NCBI RefSeq assembly: GCF_024359525.1
Contig: NZ_JAKZEU010000002.1
Coordinates: forward strand, 124,001-188,000
DNA: 64,000 nucleotides
From: Paracoccus albicereus
GTDB lineage: Bacteria > Pseudomonadota > Alphaproteobacteria > Rhodobacterales > Rhodobacteraceae
Direction of reading: 5' to 3'
The position numbers and the translations under genes are program-made. Every line of letters starts with the position of its first letter. Positions within the stretch are counted from its first letter, which is position 1. The notes beneath the pieces were generated by a model. That model saw nothing but the letters and a program-made list of their open reading frames with translations. It did not search any database and had not been told where the DNA came from. Shown piece after piece: positions 34,718 through 43,110 of this stretch.

Positions 34718-35797
34718 ATGGCATTTCCAAGCCCAATTCCATTCGATCCTTCGCTCGAAACAATCAGCGATGATGAGCGGCAGGTCGTATCCGACCTGAA
34801 CCAGTCGTTTCGCGAGATCACCGAGACCACGGCCGAGGATTGCGAATTCGCGCTTCGGTCGGTTCACGCCAAGTCTCACGGTATTCTGGAGGGTTCGCTG
34901 ACAATCGATGAGGGTCTGCCCCCCGAACTCTCGCAGGGCCTCTTCTCCAAATCCGGCACCTATCCATTGATCTTGCGCATGTCGACGAATGCCGGGGATA
35001 TGCTGGACGACTCGATCGCCCTGCCGCGTGGGTTGGCGATGAAGGTGATGGACGTCGAGGGTCAGCGTCTTCCGGATTCCGAGGGCACGACCCAGGATTT
35101 CATCATGATCAATGCGCCGGCCTTCGCTGCGCCGGACGCCGAGAGCTTCAGCAAGAATCTGTCGCTGCTTGCGAAGACGACCGACCGGGTCGAGTGGCTC
35201 AAGAAGATCGCTGCCGGAATGTTCAAGGTCGTGAATGCCGCGCTCGACAAGGTCGGTGTTGGCCAGATCGATGCCTTGGCGCTGATGGGTGGGATGCCCA
35301 ATGTCGAGCCCATGGGCGAGACCTACAATTCTGCAGTGCCGTTTCGCTACGGCGATTATGTTGCGAAGTTCTCGCTGCGTCCGATCGCGCCTTGGATGCG
35401 GGATCTGACGGGCGAGACGATTGATGCAAGCGATCGGCCCAATGCCGTGCGCGAGGATGTCCGGGCCGAGATGTTCAGAGGCGATGCCGAATGGGAGTTC
35501 TGCGTCCAGCTTCTGCGTGATGTCGACAAGCAACCGATCGAGGATGCGTCGGCTGAATGGCCGGAGGACGTTTCACCGTTTCAGCGCGTGGGCGTCGTGC
35601 GGGCCGCGTCGCAGGACAGCTGGCTGGATAGCCGGGTCGAGACCGTCAACATGCACCGCCGATTCAGCCCCTGGACCGGGCTCGAGGCGCACCGACCTTT
35701 GGGCAACGTCAATCGTGCCCGCAAGCAAACCTATCGCGCCAGCGCCGATTTGCGATCGAGCCTGAACAACTGCCCTTACCACGAGCCGGGCGCGTAG
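34718..35797 (+). CDS. Catalase-fold protein (catalase-related family)
   Basis: This 359-residue protein belongs to the small catalase-related family, shorter than the 480-residue or longer true catalases. The distal-histidine region is recognisable as RSVHAKSHGILEG (His near 52), and another typical element is LILRMSTN, with the conserved DFIMINAPAF. The usual RxxxY proximal-ligand motif of catalases is not evident; the family-typical VNRARKQTYRAS segment occurs near the C-terminus. It may be a heme peroxidase-like or lipid-peroxide enzyme. The start has only a weak site before ATG 34718. Confidence 0.82.
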   Translation: MAFPSPIPFDPSLETISDDERQVVSDLNQSFREITETTAEDCEFALRSVHAKSHGILEGSLTIDEGLPPELSQGLFSKSGTYPLILRMSTNAGDMLDDSIALPRGLAMKVMDVEGQRLPDSEGTTQDFIMINAPAFAAPDAESFSKNLSLLAKTTDRVEWLKKIAAGMFKVVNAALDKVGVGQIDALALMGGMPNVEPMGETYNSAVPFRYGDYVAKFSLRPIAPWMRDLTGETIDASDRPNAVREDVRAEMFRGDAEWEFCVQLLRDVDKQPIEDASAEWPEDVSPFQRVGVVRAASQDSWLDSRVETVNMHRRFSPWTGLEAHRPLGNVNRARKQTYRASADLRSSLNNCPYHEPGA

Positions 35798-35871
35798 GGG
35801 CGTGCTGACCCAATTTTGATGCGAGGAGTCCGGCCCCTTTGTCGATGTGGTCGAGCAAAAAGGATGAATGC

Positions 35872-38172
35872 ATGTCCGACGATGACTTGAACCACAGTGC
35901 AACAAGCGCCGATCCAGATACTCCTCATGCCGAAGGCGCTTCCGGTGGTTGGGGATCGTTGAAGGGTATCGCGCGTATTCTGGGGGAAGAATCTGTCAGT
36001 CCCGTGGCCCTTCGCATTCTGGCAGGGCAGAACAAGCCGGGGGGTGTCATGTGTCCGTCCTGCGCTTGGGCAAAGCCGGCCAAACCCCATGCCGCGGAAT
36101 TCTGCGAGAATGGCGCCAAGGCAACGCTGTGGGAGTTGACGCGAGCGCGGGCCGACGCGTCCTTCTTCGCGAAGCATAGCGTCACTGAACTTCGCGAGTG
36201 GAGCGATCACGACCTCGAACTGTCCGGGCGCCTGACGGATCCGCTGCGCTATGACAGCGAGGCCGACCGCTACGTTCCGGTTTCATGGGACGAGGCTTTT
36301 GCGGAAATCGGTCGCGAATTGAGAGCCATCGATCCGGAGGAGGCGGTCTTCTATTCGTCCGGACATGCGGGGCTGGAGGCATCCTACCTCTATGCGCTGT
36401 TCGCCAGAGCCTACGGTCACAACAACCTGCCGCAATCGTCGAACATGTGCCACGAGACGACATCGGTCAATCTTCAGCGGCTGATCGGCGTGCCTGTCGG
36501 CACCTGCACGCTTGACGATTTCGAGACCTGCGATGCGATCTTCTTCTTCGGCCAGAATACCGGCACGAACTCACCCCGGTTTCTGCATCCGCTGAAGCGG
36601 GCTGTCGAACGCGGCTGCCGGATCGTCACTTTCAATCCGGTGCGAGAGCGCGGGCTGGTCGAATTCGTCGATCCCCAAAACCCCATTCAGATGACAGTCG
36701 GCAAACCGACGAAAATATCCGAGGAGTATCTGCAGGTTCGACCGGGTGGGGATGTGGCGGCGCTGGCGGGGATGATGCGCTGCATTTTCGATCGCGATGA
36801 CGAGGTTGGCGATATCATCGATCGCGGCTTCATCGGCGAGCACACCGAAGGGTTTGACGCGATGGAGGCGGCGATCCGCTCGATGGACTGGTCGGACATC
36901 GAGCGGCAGTCGGGATTGACGCACGCCATGCTTTCGCGCGCGGCCGATATCTACATGCAGGCCAAAAACGTGATCGGCATCTATGGCATGGGGCTGACCC
37001 AGCATGTCGGCGGCTGGCTCAATCTCGGGATGCTGGTCAATTTCCTGATGCTGCGCGGCAATATCGGCCGATCAGGGGCAGGGATCTCGCCGGTGCGAGG
37101 TCATTCCAACGTGCAGGGCCAGCGGACGGTGGGCATCGCCGAGCGCACGGCGAGTGTGCCGCTGGACAAGCTGCGCGACCTTTTCGACATCGATCCGCCG
37201 CAACAGGACGGGCTGAACGCGGTCCATGCCTGCGAAGCAATGCTTGCAGGGCGGGTCAAGGCTATGGTGCAACTCGGCGGCAATCTTGTGCGCGCATTGC
37301 CGGATTCGCGGCGTATGGAAGCAGCATGGCCGTCGCTTCGCCTGACGGTTCATGTCGCCACGAAGCTTAACCGCTCGCAGTTGGTCCCGGGACAGGTCGC
37401 CTACATTCTGCCCTGCCTCGGTCGGACCGATCGGGACGAGCAGGACGGTCAGCCGCAGGTCGTGACGATCGAGGATTCCATGTCGCACATTCACGCCTCG
37501 ATCGGGTCGGCCAAGCCGCCATCGGAACGCTGCCGATCCGAGCTTGCCATCGTCGCAGGCATGGCGGCGGCGACGCTGCCATCCAGTCCGAAGCTGCACT
37601 GGGACGCGTGGACGCGAAACTACGATCTTGTTCGCGACTTGATCGCCGCGACCTATCCGGACGAGTTTCATGATTTCACCGCTCGCATGCCGACACCCGG
37701 CGGTTTCTATCGTGGGAATGCCGCCCGTGAGCGCCAGTGGCAGACCGAGACCGGCAAGGCGCGGTTCACGACGCCCGACACGTTGACGGCGCTTGGAGAA
37801 GAGCCGGTGGATGAGACGATGACACTCGTCACGCTCCGTTCGAACGACCAGTTCAACACCACGATTTACGGCTTCTCTGACCGCCTCAGGGGGCTTGAAG
37901 GAAGCCGCGAGATTTTGCTTGTCAATCGTGACGAGATGGCTCGGCTTGGTCTGGAAGAGGGTGAACGGGTCACGCTTGTCAGCGCCGTTGACGATGGGGT
38001 CACTCGGGAGGTCGCAGGTCTGGCGGTGACCGCCTACGATCTGCCGAACGGCTGTGTCGCGGGCTACTATCCTGAGCTGAACCCGTTGATCCCGTTGAGC
38101 TATCACGAAACCAAGTCTCAGACGCCAGCATACAAGGGGTCACCGGTGAGGATTGTGCCGAAAGGGGCGTAG
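35872..38172 (+). CDS. FdhF/YdeP-family molybdopterin oxidoreductase
   Basis: This 766-residue protein belongs to the YdeP-like branch of the molybdopterin oxidoreductases, related to formate dehydrogenase H. A CPSCAW cluster lies near residue 61, the Mo-bis-MGD domains follow (NMCHETTSVNLQRLIG, FFFGQNTGTNSPRF, GHSNVQGQRTVGI), and the C-terminal MGD-binding part has FNTTIYGFSDRL. There is no Cys/SeCys of the formate dehydrogenase type at the usual active site that I can confirm, so the substrate is unknown. The ATG at 35872 is chosen for AAGGA upstream. It converges on a regulator gene. Confidence 0.85.
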   Translation: MSDDDLNHSATSADPDTPHAEGASGGWGSLKGIARILGEESVSPVALRILAGQNKPGGVMCPSCAWAKPAKPHAAEFCENGAKATLWELTRARADASFFAKHSVTELREWSDHDLELSGRLTDPLRYDSEADRYVPVSWDEAFAEIGRELRAIDPEEAVFYSSGHAGLEASYLYALFARAYGHNNLPQSSNMCHETTSVNLQRLIGVPVGTCTLDDFETCDAIFFFGQNTGTNSPRFLHPLKRAVERGCRIVTFNPVRERGLVEFVDPQNPIQMTVGKPTKISEEYLQVRPGGDVAALAGMMRCIFDRDDEVGDIIDRGFIGEHTEGFDAMEAAIRSMDWSDIERQSGLTHAMLSRAADIYMQAKNVIGIYGMGLTQHVGGWLNLGMLVNFLMLRGNIGRSGAGISPVRGHSNVQGQRTVGIAERTASVPLDKLRDLFDIDPPQQDGLNAVHACEAMLAGRVKAMVQLGGNLVRALPDSRRMEAAWPSLRLTVHVATKLNRSQLVPGQVAYILPCLGRTDRDEQDGQPQVVTIEDSMSHIHASIGSAKPPSERCRSELAIVAGMAAATLPSSPKLHWDAWTRNYDLVRDLIAATYPDEFHDFTARMPTPGGFYRGNAARERQWQTETGKARFTTPDTLTALGEEPVDETMTLVTLRSNDQFNTTIYGFSDRLRGLEGSREILLVNRDEMARLGLEEGERVTLVSAVDDGVTREVAGLAVTAYDLPNGCVAGYYPELNPLIPLSYHETKSQTPAYKGSPVRIVPKGA

Positions 38173-38199
38173 ACCGTGCGAAGTTCACTGGACAGTTTT

Positions 38200-38216
38200 G
38201 AAGCTGAAGCAGCTTT
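38200..38216. terminator. Bidirectional hairpin between the YdeP-like and regulator genes
   Basis: AAGCTG (38201-38206), loop AAG, CAGCTT (38210-38215) forms a short stem with TTTT on the left and TTC on the right, between converging genes. It is a plausible weak intrinsic terminator for both strands. Confidence 0.45.
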
Positions 38217-38222
38217 TCACCG

Positions 38223-39290
38223 TCAGAAAACGCTAGAGGCGGGTTGAGAAATTCCAGGGCTGTCGGCGTGATAACCCGGAAGGCCGTCGACGGCCTTCTT
38301 GAACTCCGAGCTTTGCATGGCTTCGGTAACCCGGGCCATTGCGTCGGTCTTCAAAAGGGTGTCCCGGCAAACGAAGACGTAGTCTTCGGTCAATAGCGGA
38401 AGAAACTCCAAGCCGAACTTCCGCGCAGCCGCCTCTACGCCAAAACTCGCGTCGGCCATTCCGCTGGCGACATAGGCTGCCACGGCGGCATGGGTGAATT
38501 CGAAGGTGGTCTGGCGTCCACCGCCGATGTCTTCCGCTCTCATATCTGACTGCGCAAGGATCTGCTGCAACAGTTGAGCCGTGCCGGAGGCTGGGTCCCG
38601 CGCGACAAAACGCAGCCCCGGTGACTTCAGGTCAGCAACGCTTTTGATGCGAAGCGGATTGCCCCTTTGCACCATCAGCCCCATCTCACGCGTAACGAAG
38701 TTGATAACGCTATAGTTTTCGTCGCCCAGAAGAGCGCGTGTCATATCGACTGCCTCCTTTCGCAGGGGCCCCTGTGGCAGGTGCATCCCGGCAAGATCGC
38801 AATCACCCCTTTTCAGGGCCGCGAGAGAGGTTTCGTTGCTCACGTAGCGCAGATCGAACACCATATCGCCCTGGCGATCGAGGATGCGCTGCAATTCTTC
38901 GACCGCGAAACCGTGGCTGGCGTGGGCGCGGATTTCGGTCGTGGCCTTTGGCAGGAACTCGACCAGTTCCGCCTCCAGCTCATGGATCAGATTGGCCAGC
39001 TGCGGCATCAGACGGGCTTGCAGGCGCTGACCGGCCCAGACGAGCCGCTCGCCAAACGGCGTGAGGCTTGTGCCTTTGCCGCGTTGCCGCTCGACCAACG
39101 GTGCTTCGAAAAAGTCCGACCATTTCTCGATCAGGTTCCAGGCATGGCGGTAGGAGATGCCGGCCTGTTCGGCCGCGCGCGTGATCTTCCCGGTTGCGCG
39201 GATCTCGTTGAGGAAGTCCAGCATGACGGTCATCGGTGGCGCCGCATCGGACTTTCGGAACCTCCAAACTGGCACAATCTCGATCTGCAT
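38223..39290 (-). CDS. One-component regulator: ModE/LysR-like HTH fused to a PBP-like domain
   Basis: This 355-residue protein has an N-terminal winged HTH (LDFLNEIRATGKITRAAEQAGISYRHAWNLIEKW, seen in part) followed by a linker and a periplasmic-binding-protein-like domain (about 120-345; for example DLRYVSNETSLAALKRGDCDLAG and FVARDPASGTAQLLQQIL). There is no signal peptide, so it is a cytosolic sensor. The same fold is used for molybdate or tungstate sensing in other regulators, and a molybdopterin enzyme lies next door. A palindrome directly upstream of its own RBS suggests autoregulation. Confidence 0.82.
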   Translation of the reverse strand: MQIEIVPVWRFRKSDAAPPMTVMLDFLNEIRATGKITRAAEQAGISYRHAWNLIEKWSDFFEAPLVERQRGKGTSLTPFGERLVWAGQRLQARLMPQLANLIHELEAELVEFLPKATTEIRAHASHGFAVEELQRILDRQGDMVFDLRYVSNETSLAALKRGDCDLAGMHLPQGPLRKEAVDMTRALLGDENYSVINFVTREMGLMVQRGNPLRIKSVADLKSPGLRFVARDPASGTAQLLQQILAQSDMRAEDIGGGRQTTFEFTHAAVAAYVASGMADASFGVEAAARKFGLEFLPLLTEDYVFVCRDTLLKTDAMARVTEAMQSSEFKKAVDGLPGYHADSPGISQPASSVF

Positions 39291-39301
39291 TTGGCGCCTC
39301 C

Positions 39302-39321
39302 TTATGAACCAGTGTTCATAA
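39302..39321. promoter_or_regulatory. Palindromic operator 1 in front of the PBP-domain regulator
   Basis: TTATGAAC-CAGT-GTTCATAA is a perfect 8-bp inverted repeat (39302-39309 and 39314-39321) with a 4-bp spacer. It abuts the AGGAGG ribosome binding site of the leftward regulator gene, 11 bp from its start codon. A bound protein would block its expression. It matches operator 2. Confidence 0.75.
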
Positions 39322-39432
39322 TTGGGGTTATCGTTATAGACGAATTATGCAGATAAAATCATATTTGATGCAAGCAGTTCTGCCCCTATCTCTCCTAAAC
39401 ACAGTCGCGCTACAGCGTGATCAGTACCGGGA

Positions 39433-39450
39433 TATGAACGATAGTTCATA
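39433..39450. promoter_or_regulatory. Palindromic operator 2 in front of the aldehyde dehydrogenase gene
   Basis: TATGAAC-GATA-GTTCATA is a perfect 7-bp inverted repeat with a 4-bp spacer. The sequence GTTCATAATTGG is shared exactly between both sites (39314-39325 and 39444-39455). It lies just before the GGAGG of the rightward aldehyde dehydrogenase gene. The two sites bracket the 173-bp divergent promoter region. Confidence 0.75.
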
Positions 39451-39463
39451 ATTGGAGGATATG

Positions 39464-40918
39464 ATGCCCTATGACTTTTCAAGCGCCTGCGCGGACCTGA
39501 TCATCCACGGCGAACGCGTGCCAGCGCGATCTGGTCGGACCTTCGAGACGATCAATCCCTTTACGGAACAGTCTCTCGGTCTGGTTGCGGAAGCGGGCAT
39601 CGATGATGTGGATGACGCGGTCAAATCAGCGCGCGAAGCGTTGCGCGCCGAATGGGGTACGATGCGTGCCGCTCAGCGCGGTCAATTGCTGCTGCGCTTT
39701 GCCGACCTCATCCGACGTGACCAGGAACAGCTGATCGAGCTTGAAAGCCTCGACACCGGCAAGCCGATTTCGACCATCCGTCGTCAGGACTTTCCAGCGG
39801 TCTTGGATACGCTGACCTACTACGCGGGCTTCGCCGACAAGATCAACGGACAGGTCATTCCCGCTCGACCGGACGCGCTGACCTATACGGTGCGAGAACC
39901 CGTCGGCGTGGTCGCCGCGATCGTGCCATGGAACTTCCCCATGATGATCGGGATGTGGAAGATCGCTCCGGCGCTGGCTTGCGGCTGTGCCGTGATTCTG
40001 AAACCCGCCGAGCTGACCCCCCTGACCGCACTGAAGTTCGGCGAGCTTGCGCTCGAGGCCGGTATCCCCGCCGGCGTGCTCAATGTCGTTCCGGGCTTCG
40101 GCACCGTCGCCGGACAGGCCTTGGTGGATCACCCGGATGTGGACAAGGTGACGTTTACCGGTTCTCCCGGCGTAGGGCGCCAGATCCTGCGGGGATCCGC
40201 GGGCAATCTCAAGCGCGTCACGCTCGAACTGGGCGGCAAGTCGGCCAACATCATCTTCCCTGACGCGGATCTCGACGCTGCGGCCAAGGCTGCCGCATCA
40301 GGGATTTTCTTCAACAGCGGCCAGGTCTGTTCGGCCGGATCTCGGATCCTCGTTCACAACTCGGTCCGAGATGAAGTGGTCGAACGGCTGGTGGCTCGCG
40401 CCGAAAAGATCCGCGTCGGCGATCCGTCCGACAGCGGCACCCAGATGGGACCTGTCGTGTCCGACAAGCAGATGGAGCGGATTCTGGACTATATCAGGAT
40501 CGGCAAGGACGAGGGCGCTCGTCTGGTCAGCGGCGGAGTCCGGACCGCAACGCGCGGATACACCATCGCTCCGACCATCTTCGACGACGTCGATCCGCAG
40601 ATGCGCATCTCGCAAGAAGAGATTTTTGGCCCCGTCGCCTCGGTGATCGGCTTCGACGACGAGGACGAGGCGCTGTCCATCGCCAACGGTACGCAATTCA
40701 GTCTCGCCGCAGGGATATGGACGAATGACATGCGGCGGATGCATCGCTTCGTGCGTGATCTGAAAGCAGGCACGGTCTGGGCCAACACGTTCGGACCGAC
40801 CGATGTGCGGCTTCCGTGGGGCGGCACCCGGGATTCTGGTCTCGGCCGCGAGCACGGCGAGGTCGCGCTGGAGAACTTCACCGAACCCAAGTCGGTCTGG
40901 ATCGCGCATGGTGCGTGA
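39464..40918 (+). CDS. Aldehyde dehydrogenase (betaine-aldehyde-dehydrogenase-like)
   Basis: This 484-residue NAD(P)-dependent aldehyde dehydrogenase has the cofactor segments PWNFPMMIGMWKIAPALACG and FTGSPGVGRQIL, the general-base glutamate in ELGGKSANI, and the catalytic cysteine in NSGQVCSAGSRI (near 285). The ATG at 39464 is 5 bp from GGAGG; the ATG at 39461 would be too close. It diverges from the PBP-domain regulator and shares duplicated operator sequences with it. The aldehyde substrate is not evident; homologues handle betaine aldehyde or related short aldehydes. Confidence 0.92.
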   Translation: MPYDFSSACADLIIHGERVPARSGRTFETINPFTEQSLGLVAEAGIDDVDDAVKSAREALRAEWGTMRAAQRGQLLLRFADLIRRDQEQLIELESLDTGKPISTIRRQDFPAVLDTLTYYAGFADKINGQVIPARPDALTYTVREPVGVVAAIVPWNFPMMIGMWKIAPALACGCAVILKPAELTPLTALKFGELALEAGIPAGVLNVVPGFGTVAGQALVDHPDVDKVTFTGSPGVGRQILRGSAGNLKRVTLELGGKSANIIFPDADLDAAAKAAASGIFFNSGQVCSAGSRILVHNSVRDEVVERLVARAEKIRVGDPSDSGTQMGPVVSDKQMERILDYIRIGKDEGARLVSGGVRTATRGYTIAPTIFDDVDPQMRISQEEIFGPVASVIGFDDEDEALSIANGTQFSLAAGIWTNDMRRMHRFVRDLKAGTVWANTFGPTDVRLPWGGTRDSGLGREHGEVALENFTEPKSVWIAHGA

Positions 40919-41033: not shown

Positions 41034-41291
41034 TTACCGCACGTCATTGCTCTCGCGCGCGAGACACGCGTCCTGAGCCCGGGAGAGTCTCGCTAGCACC
41101 GCGTCAATCGGCTCACCTTTCGCGCGGGCGTCCTGCCAGATGCGGCGGCATGAACTCGGCGACCAAGGCAGCGCTGCCTCGGCCAACCAGCGGCGCAAGG
41201 GCGGCGGCAACGCGTCAAAGCCGTGCATCGCATCGCGGGTGCGGGGTCGAACCTTCTGCCGGGTCGCGCCAATGTTTGATGCCCGGGCCAT
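41034..41291 (-). CDS. DUF6525 family protein
   Basis: This 85-residue protein carries the conserved HGFDALPPPLRRWLAEAALPWSP-type segment (shown here in shortened form) of DUF6525 and a positively charged C-terminal helix (ARLSRAQDACLARE). It has no transmembrane segment and no known function. Its ATG at 41291 overlaps the stop of DUF1826 by one base (TGATG). A start at 41306 is possible but less tidy. It is the last gene of the probable zinc-responsive operon. The family name is from recognition; a profile search would confirm it. Confidence 0.75.
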   Translation of the reverse strand: MARASNIGATRQKVRPRTRDAMHGFDALPPPLRRWLAEAALPWSPSSCRRIWQDARAKGEPIDAVLARLSRAQDACLARESNDVR

Positions 41292-41905
41292 CAGCAGCAC
41301 ACGCAATCGTGGGCCGGGTCGATGACGACAAGCAGACGCGGTCCGCCCGCCGCGGCCGGTGGCGAGCGGTGGACGATCGCGCCAAGCTCACCCCCCGGCC
41401 AGAGGGCCCCACGGAAGATGCCAACGTCTCCACGCTCCATCCGGTGGGTCGATCGCGGCTGACCGCTGGTCCCGATCGGACCGTATTCGGTGCCCGGTCC
41501 ACGCAGGGTGCAGAGCAAACGCGCGGCCACGGCGTCGATGTGCCATTTGGGGCAGGGCTGGCCTTCGGTCGCATCGAGGCGGACTTCGAGGAATGGCGAT
41601 CCGAAGGCGAGGATCGCATGTCGTGCCAGCGTCTCGACATCCGCGACAAGGTCCGCTGTCGCGGCACCGGTTCCCGCCACGTCGCAGGCCGTCTTCACTG
41701 CCGAAGCCACATCGGCGAGCCTGACCCTCTGCCGCAGACGCGGCAGCCGCTCGTTCGGCAGGGCGTCGAGAGCCTTGATGAGACGACCGGGCAACCGCCG
41801 TTGCCACAGCGCCAGCGACACGCCGGGCTGCCCGATCGATTGAAGCACGTGCGCATCCGCATCGCTGCGCGTCGTCGTGATCAGGTTGGGAAGGGCGGTC
41901 ATCAT
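41291..41905 (-). CDS. DUF1826 domain protein (zinc-regulon-associated)
   Basis: This roughly 204-residue protein of unknown function resembles the DUF1826 family. A segment with conserved His/Asp residues is [23 protein letters not shown], followed by [12 protein letters not shown] and IVHRSPPA, which look like a cupin/oxygenase-type metal site. In other Rhodobacteraceae a DUF1826 gene typically accompanies the CobW GTPase under Zur control. The start overlaps the cobW stop (ATGATGA); the TGATG link to DUF6525 also indicates one operon. Function is not established. Confidence 0.8.
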
Positions 41906-43110
41906 GCCGCCTCGGATCGGCGCCATTGCGGGAATGGATCGGGCAGGTCGGACAGCCGGGAGAGGTCTTCGGCCATCTCTTCCGAGACGCGGCAGTCGTC
42001 GAGCCTTTCCTTCAGATCCGGCCAGTCGATCCCCGCGCCGATGAAGACGAGTTCCTGCCGCCGGTCGCCCCACGGCTCAAGCCAGTGCGCTGCCATGTAG
42101 GCGCGGGCCGTGTCGTGATCGGGCCAGCGATCACGCGGGACCGCTGCCCACCAGGTCCCGAGCGGCCTGATAGACGACAGCGCCCCGGCCAGAGAGAATT
42201 CGGCGACCCAGTCCGGGCGGGTCGCGATCCAGAAATGGCCCTTGGCCCGGATCACGCCCGGCATGGCGCCGTTCAGCACGGCCATCACCTTTTCCGGCTG
42301 AAACGGACGACGCGCACGATAGACGAAGGAAGCGACGCCGTATTCCTCGGTTTCCGGCACGTGATCGGCGAAGCCGTAAAGCTCCTTGGCCCACATCGGA
42401 TGTTCATGCGCGCGATCGAAGTCGAACAATCCGGTGTCTAGGATCGCGCTCGCCGGCACGTCCGAATGATCTGTCTCTATCACTCGCGCGTCGGCGTTCA
42501 GGCTGCGAATGATCTTGCGCGCGGCGTCGGTGCGCTCGGCACCCGCATCCGACACCTTGTTCAGCACCACCACATCCGCGAACTCGATCTGCTCAACCAG
42601 CAGGTCCACCAGCGTTCTGTCGTCGCCTTGTCCGGTCGTCTCGCCACGCTCGCTCAGGAAATCATGACCGGAATAGTCGTGGAGCAGGTTCACCGCGTCG
42701 ACGACGGTCACCATCGTGTCGAGCCGGGCCACATCGGACAGGCTGTCGCCGTGCTCATCGCGGAAGTCGAAGGTTGCCGCGACGGGAAGGGGTTCGGATA
42801 TCCCCGTCGACTCAATCAGGAGGTAGTCGAAGCGTTTCTCTGCACAGAGGCGCCGCACCTCTGACAGCAGATCATCGCGCAGGGTGCAGCAGATGCACCC
42901 GTTCGACATCTCGACCAGCGTTTCATCTGTGCGTGACAATGCGGTCTCGGCACGGACGAGATCGGCGTCGATGTTGACCTCGGACATGTCGTTGACGATG
43001 ACCGCGACACGACGCCCATCGCGATTGTTCAGCACGCGATTCAGAAGCGTTGTCTTCCCCGCGCCGAGAAAGCCTGAAAGGACGGTGACGGGCAGGCGGG
43101 TGTCTTTCAT
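41902..43110 (-). CDS. CobW-family GTPase (COG0523), probable zinc chaperone
   Basis: This 402-residue P-loop GTPase has Walker [12 protein letters not shown], the metal-binding CXCC motif in [13 protein letters not shown], the Walker-B/ESTG segment [11 protein letters not shown] and the guanine-specificity element VVLNKVS. The C-terminal CobW_C domain includes [13 protein letters not shown]0523 proteins move zinc to clients under zinc starvation. A near-perfect Zur-like box lies 67 bp upstream of the ATG, and DUF1826/DUF6525 follow in the same operon, so the zinc role is the best reading. Confidence 0.9.

Follow-up and report, generated by a model that had tools for sequence, protein, structure and literature searches.

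A formate dehydrogenase-type regulator paired with an aldehyde dehydrogenase, beside an independent catalase-fold and FdhF/YdeP gene pair, in Paracoccus albicereus

A 64,000-nucleotide stretch of the genome of Paracoccus albicereus (contig NZ_JAKZEU010000002.1, positions 124,001 to 188,000; the window, to which all unlabelled positions refer) contains a regulator gene with a ModE-like helix-turn-helix (HTH) and a PBP_like binding-protein (PBP) domain (355 amino acids [aa], minus strand, 38223-39290; PF12727 171 bits, PF00126 36 bits) and, divergent from it across an intergenic gap of 170 bp, an NAD(P)-type aldehyde dehydrogenase (ALDH) gene (485 aa, plus strand, 39461-40918; PF00171 605 bits; a longer TTG start at 39452 is possible). 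This pair, termed unit B, is best read as a formate dehydrogenase-type regulator re-paired with an ALDH and represents a variant of formate dehydrogenase-type regulation. For the wider reading, in which the metal-free ALDH would serve formyl or formate oxidation and for which we infer both ligand and substrate, we estimate a probability of about 50%. The two genes upstream, encoding a catalase-fold protein and an FdhF/YdeP-family molybdopterin oxidoreductase (unit A), form a pair of their own. The initial annotation had combined all four genes into one stress or aldehyde/oxyanion-responsive module; their locations are confirmed by open reading frames (ORFs) and family matches, and the module itself is not supported, given the lack of co-conservation described below.

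The affiliation of the regulator is based on its partners in other bacteria. A pattern-led scan of an 84,980-species collection yielded 35 regulator loci, and at 24 of them, from Pseudomonadota and one Acidobacteriota, an ALDH with 71-87% identity is divergent from the regulator gene. In nine of the 11 loci without ALDH, the surroundings of the regulator include formate dehydrogenase or its maturation genes, or uptake genes of the tungstate/molybdate type; the remaining two are L007 with other genes and the truncated L033, which was omitted from alignment A2 and the upstream counts. Scored neighbours include FdsA (TIGR01591, 910 bits, cutoff 666) and an above-cutoff FdhD in L021, FrmA (617 bits, cutoff 544) in L016, and MobB above its cutoff in L011, accompanied by MobA and MoeA that are mostly below the equivalog cutoffs; the WtpA-like protein of L013, the TupA-like protein of L017 and the aldehyde ferredoxin oxidoreductase of L010 all score below theirs.

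A second sample of 398 genomes, evenly drawn from the phylum (E <= 1e-50), gave 33 matches in 27 genomes including that of the window; three matches without a locus were left unclassified and 30 loci were read. The partner is fdsG/fdsB of an NAD-linked formate dehydrogenase in 17 cases, an ALDH in six (that of the window and five others with 62-67% identity), a TupB-like permease in five, and a major facilitator superfamily carrier in one (L099; matches to lactate or oxalate/formate types, none reaching its cutoff), and none was recognised in L114, which has a fatty-acid desaturase on the other side. Some of these assignments are soft, as FdsG/FdsB of L104 and L105 are weak matches (23-40% identity) that may belong to another NADH-linked complex, and of the five TupB-like permeases, four were scanned and scored 171-178 bits, below the cutoff of 320, whereas that of L110 was assigned by eye. 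The search of plasmids (E <= 1e-40) recovered the regulator in only two records, i.e., from Halomonas (44% identity), where it faces fdsGBA-fdhD, and from Aquabacterium (42% identity), where it faces FdhF/YdeP-fdhD. Both types of partner meet in genome G738, in which fdhD-fdsABG, a regulator, ALDH and another regulator stand in a row. A genome of the window's own genus (G011) has a regulator with 56% identity facing a formate dehydrogenase alpha fragment (82 and 162 bits, cutoff 666); this fragment (L004, 3183-4052) is spread over two frames and has no start, indicative of a pseudogene or an assembly fault.

Comparative sequence analysis thus places the regulator in a family of ModE-HTH/PBP one-component regulators that face fdsGBA, FdhF/YdeP-fdhD, tungstate-type uptake genes or an ALDH. 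In a tree of 36 regulators, formate dehydrogenase- and ALDH-linked rows interleave with strong support for several forks (12 label changes, compared with a mean of 18 after shuffling), and partners have therefore been exchanged. A class-wide search at 1e-90 detected the regulator in only 2 of 385 genomes, its own included, so the close type is rare. No description of this regulator-ALDH pairing was found in the literature, of which subscription papers were only partly covered.

The gap between the regulator and ALDH genes contains two copies of the 16-base palindrome ATGAACNNNNGTTCAT (39304-39319 and 39434-39449), which are its sole exact copies in the 3.66-Mb genome, and three boxes of the type TATG-N10-CATA; the shared operator proposed in the initial annotation is thereby borne out. 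Box 1 (39303-39320) lies 12 bp before the regulator start, box 3 (39433-39450) 10 bp before the ATG of ALDH, and box 2 (39346-39363) is central, a position at which similar sites (ATATGA...TGC-TA) occur in several other loci. All copies of the box within the window are located in this gap. The genome has nine copies, compared with four of a reversed control motif, and the six outside the window comprise five inside predicted ORFs and one upstream of modA. The positions of boxes 1 and 3 near the start codons suggest repression. A sigma-70-like promoter was looked for between 34400 and 41200, and none was found.

The box is conserved with its spacing. Upstream of the regulator, the form with a gap of 10 is present in 28 of 35 regions (34 other loci and the window; shuffled mean, 0.12), and forms with other gaps, from 4 to 15, occur in zero to two regions each. 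The family box was partly derived from this first set of upstream regions, and a second set of 31 regions was therefore used as an independent check: gap 10 is present in 17 (shuffled mean, 0.09), gap 11 in three and gap 14 in one, whereas the remaining gaps from 6 to 13 and each of five decoy motifs are absent from all 31. The counts cover related, non-independent sequences and are a measure of conservation, not probabilities. The strict 16-base operator is much more restricted: among the 35 loci, L027 alone has it close to the regulator, and L032 has a single copy at a large distance. The TATG-N10-CATA box, by comparison, accompanies different partners, e.g., twice in the fdhD-fdsG gap of L021, just before fdsG in L024, before the fds genes in L032, at the head of WtpA-like/TonB genes in L006, L010, L013 and L017 (where some gene starts are uncertain), in the gaps of both plasmid loci, in duplicate before each regulator of G738, and at the head of the G011 fragment; it was searched for and not found in L011 and L016. 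In the phylum sample, every one of the six ALDH and five TupB-like cases has the box within the gap or at its edge. The distant regulators (31-36% identity) of L109-L112 and L115, which face TupB-like permeases with the same box, are candidate tungstate regulators with a PBP sensor.

The separation of unit B from the two genes upstream became apparent from the co-occurrence count that the initial annotation had proposed as a check. Among 121 genomes (the window's own and 120 relatives), the regulator is present in two (E <= 1e-30), the FdhF/YdeP homologue in 40 (E <= 1e-150) and the catalase-fold protein in 17 (E <= 1e-40), and all four genes occur together solely in the genome of the window. 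The catalase-fold and FdhF/YdeP genes are adjacent in nine of the 121 (G000, G003, G012, G017, G022, G032, G038, G044 and G052). Among 29 FdhF loci of other genomes, for which up to 1.5 kb was inspected on either side, seven have the catalase-fold gene directly upstream and an eighth (L053) has a 54-residue fragment; neither the regulator nor ALDH was detected near any of the 29. At the 35 regulator loci from other genomes, FdhF matches are limited to 21-27% identity, as seen with canonical formate dehydrogenases, and a catalase-fold match (E <= 1e-15) was not reported. Exact and one-mismatch boxes were sought without success in the intergenic DNA of unit A; a one-mismatch box at 36391 lies inside the FdhF gene.

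Because of the co-occurrence counts, the flank survey of the FdhF loci and the missing exact box at unit A, the sequence data identify the four genes as two independent neighbouring pairs. The contiguity of the four genes and the 3' ends of the FdhF/YdeP and regulator genes, which face each other at a distance of about 50 bp, would fit a single stress module, and the regulator of the Aquabacterium plasmid documents that a link with FdhF/YdeP exists elsewhere. With all four genes combined in 1 of 121 genomes and no exact box at unit A, such a module is nevertheless very improbable and was rejected; its plausible look reflects a chance neighbourhood.

The AlphaFold model of the regulator (pLDDT 89, pTM 0.85) and the domain scores characterise its two halves. 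The HTH_1 match exceeds its cutoff (36 versus 26.6 bits), whereas those of LysR_substrate (21.7 versus 28 bits) and the ModE domain (TIGR00637, 49.4 versus 98.5 bits) remain below theirs, and a Pfam scan of the regulator for a MOP/TOBE molybdate-binding domain gave no match and PBP_like instead. The regulator has the ModE-type HTH in common with ModE and TunR, and boxes of the same type are also found upstream of modA, but its sensor is a PBP domain and not the MOP/TOBE domain of ModE and TunR. The closest folds of the sensor domain are phosphate-binding proteins (Z 17.9), ModA with tungstate (17.4), BenM (16.9) and CynR (16.8). The relationship to oxyanion sensors stated in the initial annotation holds in the sense that ModA is among the nearest folds, in a near tie with phosphate-binding and LysR effector domains.

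More specific information comes from the residues of the ligand domain. H126, G127, H170, R201, R231, G236, E264, T266, H267, E302 and Y304 are identical in 30 ALDH-linked and 27 formate dehydrogenase-linked rows, and S125 is shared by every ALDH-linked row and 96% of the formate dehydrogenase-linked ones, whereas five TupB-linked regulators differ (G127D, T266S, Y149F). The identity of these eleven residues and the deviation of the TupB-linked rows suggest that the ALDH- and formate dehydrogenase-linked regulators have one ligand in common. For the FdsR system of Cupriavidus necator, a 4.5-fold response to formate and a Km of 130 µM have been reported (PMC7057948). FdsR regulates fds, whereas the regulator of the window faces an ALDH; because of the fds linkage of the family, with 17 of the 30 sampled members facing fdsG/fdsB, and the reported formate response of FdsR, we lean towards formate as the ligand rather than molybdate or tungstate. 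In Methylorubrum, the tungsten formate dehydrogenase is reported to require MoeA1, MobB and FdhD, and moeA1-mobB adjoins tupBCA (PMC13197769); a formate signal could therefore also reach metal uptake.

In an alternative view, the signal perceived by the regulator would be molybdate, tungstate or the cofactor instead of formate. The ALDH, which needs no metal, would then be produced under a shortage of molybdenum or tungsten, to stand in for formate dehydrogenases or aldehyde oxidoreductases that depend on these metals and cannot be assembled. This would be in agreement with the ModE-like HTH, the alignment of the PBP domain to tungstate-bound ModA, the TupB-like permeases at 5 of the 30 phylum-sample loci, and the WtpA-like and TupA-like binding proteins, MobA/MobB/MoeA and the aldehyde ferredoxin oxidoreductase encoded in the vicinity of further family members, as well as an SBP_bac_11-family binding protein beside the regulator-ALDH pair of L028. 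The match to ModA is, however, tied with those to phosphate and LysR effector domains, the TupB-linked regulators with their three exchanges may bind something else, and the box before modA in the window's genome also occurs in 13 of 29 other modA loci, all of them in genomes without the regulator. We consider sensing of the metal possible but unlikely.

The modA boxes deserve separate mention. Of the 83 modA matches, the best 30 with loci were read, and 14 of these, drawn from L148-L178 and including L148 of the window's own genome (G000:C17, 12281-12298), have a TATG-N10-CATA box, often TATGTTCGNNNNGACATA, that starts 18-41 bp before modA. Control of modABC in trans by the regulator was examined and rejected, as none of the genomes of the 13 other loci with such a box has the regulator (E <= 1e-30); the box is therefore more simply that of an ordinary ModE-type regulator, and the box in the window's genome is probably a local one of the ModE type. 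The fds operon of this genome is located on another contig beside modABC and a different LysR gene. In L148 (2908-12310, G000:C17), modABC, the LysR gene, fdsGBA and fdhD, identified partly by eye, are co-directional and possibly form one transcript.

The ALDH reaches no curated equivalog, every one shown being below its cutoff, and its best NCBIfam matches are phenylacetaldehyde dehydrogenase (579 bits, cutoff 800) and betaine-aldehyde dehydrogenase (567 bits, cutoff 669). Asn158, Glu256 and Cys290, the catalytic residues according to known ALDH motifs, do not vary across an alignment of 34 rows (L091 and L118 among these represent a single gene). Of 23 loci in which the region after the ALDH is visible, 15 have a formyltransferase gene next to it. 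The best solved match of the formyltransferase of L025 is the hydrolase domain of 10-formyltetrahydrofolate dehydrogenase (1.5e-62), followed at a distance by methionyl-tRNA formyltransferase (2.1e-37). The combination is reminiscent of 10-formyltetrahydrofolate dehydrogenase (ALDH1L1), which consists of a hydrolase-type formyltransferase and an ALDH; in the relatives of the window the two are separate adjacent genes. A connection to formyl metabolism is also seen on the plasmid of Caballeronia SBC2, where a homologue with 66% identity is located after the formyl-CoA genes oxc-frc, with a small PAS-domain ORF in between; no oxc was found near the ALDH homologue on the other three plasmids read (L084, L116 and L117). 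Present sequence comparisons favour a formyl or formate role of the ALDH over other readings, without demonstrating it.

The ALDH might instead be a broad enzyme of ordinary aldehyde detoxification or catabolism that acquired a formate dehydrogenase-type regulator, with the formyltransferase being functionally unrelated or a tRNA-type paralogue. Its best family matches, although below cutoff, point in this direction, as do the mixed neighbours of the ALDHs with 65-67% identity on four Burkholderiaceae plasmids. The conservation of the enzyme together with its regulator at the 24 loci, the adjacency of the formyltransferase and the position of the Caballeronia homologue after oxc-frc argue against it, and we regard this explanation as improbable.

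The preferred mechanism for unit B would be as follows. The PBP domain of the regulator would bind a small anion, for which formate, the reported signal of Cupriavidus FdsR, is the simplest candidate. The regulator would occupy the boxes beside the starts of its own gene and ALDH, repressing both in the absence of the ligand. A rise of the anion would open the ALDH promoter, and the ALDH would catalyse an oxidation linked to formyl groups or formate. At loci with the formyltransferase, both enzymes together may constitute a split 10-formyltetrahydrofolate dehydrogenase that does without molybdenum and converts one-carbon units to CO2.

Several observations weigh against this interpretation. 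The fold comparison does not distinguish formate from an oxyanion, as the Z values for phosphate, molybdate/tungstate and aromatic-acid domains differ by only about 1, and kinship with Cupriavidus FdsR is conjectural. An exact box is present in 6 of the 17 fds-facing cases, and 11 lack one in the 300 bp searched; a two-mismatch box is located at the start of the catalase-fold gene (34703), as one of 64 such boxes in the window. An adjacent formyltransferase is missing from 9 of the 24 ALDH loci, one of which (L027) ends inside ALDH, and from the window, whose genome has a formyltransferase homologue (48% identity) in an oxalate cluster instead. The ALDH scores 416-422 bits against the ALDH part of 10-formyltetrahydrofolate dehydrogenase compared with 503 bits against a betaine-aldehyde dehydrogenase. 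The animal enzyme passes the formyl group to its ALDH domain via a phosphopantetheine carrier domain, which it needs (PMC8748788). A scan for acyl-carrier motifs within 1.5 kb of 15 formyltransferases, which does not extend to carriers elsewhere, detected three ORFs in three loci that were judged by eye to be spurious. The proposed pair hence differs from ALDH1L1 in that no carrier domain was found, the ALDH part is not especially similar, and in the window no formyltransferase is adjacent. The oxalate cluster itself (L073, 4382-10141, G000:C16) has the order oxc-frc-formyltransferase-fhs, with fhs assigned by eye. In L027, translated ORFs about 6.2-7.0 kb past the regulator start resemble the read-through of a repeat array, possibly CRISPR.

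If correct, the formyl/formate reading would provide a pathway for an ALDH without a curated equivalog and a ligand-testable operator for a regulator family that is present in 27 of the 398 genomes sampled across the phylum. It would also predict that bacteria can convert formyl-folate to CO2 without molybdenum, i.e., a second way of burning one-carbon units, which would be relevant for formate and methanol biotechnology and for the choice between metal-dependent and metal-free enzymes. A doubtful extension is a metal-economy switch, in which the formate dehydrogenase regulator family would have been repeatedly re-paired with ALDH and formyltransferase, so that, under a lack of molybdenum or tungsten, a split 10-formyltetrahydrofolate dehydrogenase without a carrier would take the place of formate dehydrogenase.

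Unit A, on the plus strand, comprises the genes for the catalase-fold protein (359 aa, 34718-35797) and the FdhF/YdeP-family oxidoreductase (766 aa, 35872-38172; possible longer TTG start at 35839). Of the initial claim of a catalase-fold enzyme, the fold stands, as the model, albeit weak (mean pLDDT 71), aligns to catalase-fold structures at Z values of about 20-21; the PF00199 score just fails the gathering cutoff (24.3 versus 25 bits). The short catalase-fold proteins of alignment A3 retain a VHAK motif that resembles the distal-histidine motif of catalases, but an invariant tryptophan (W319) seems to occupy the position of the haem tyrosine of catalases. The oxidoreductase belongs to its family (TIGR01701, 883 bits, cutoff 582) and, with 704 bits for the YdeP equivalog NF007406 (cutoff 1473), is by score not a YdeP orthologue.

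The oxidoreductase is comparable by family to Fdh4A of Methylorubrum and to PP_0256 and PP_4596 of Pseudomonas putida, which serve formate oxidation and tolerance; the two P. putida proteins are reported to confer formate tolerance and to have 59% identity to Fdh4A (PMC10308882). Unlike these systems, unit A includes a catalase-fold gene, and no fdhD was seen among the neighbouring ORFs. Unit A is a small gene pair present in part of the genus and, by this analogy, most likely encodes a molybdopterin formate dehydrogenase and a partner of catalase fold, for which protection or electron transfer would be a guess. To the left of unit A, a thiamine gene cluster, named by eye, ends at about 34476. 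Beyond ALDH, on the opposite strand, the window carries at 41291-43110 a DUF1826 gene and a gene for a ZigA-like zinc-chaperone GTPase, which scores 587.5 bits and thus just below the cutoff of 600.

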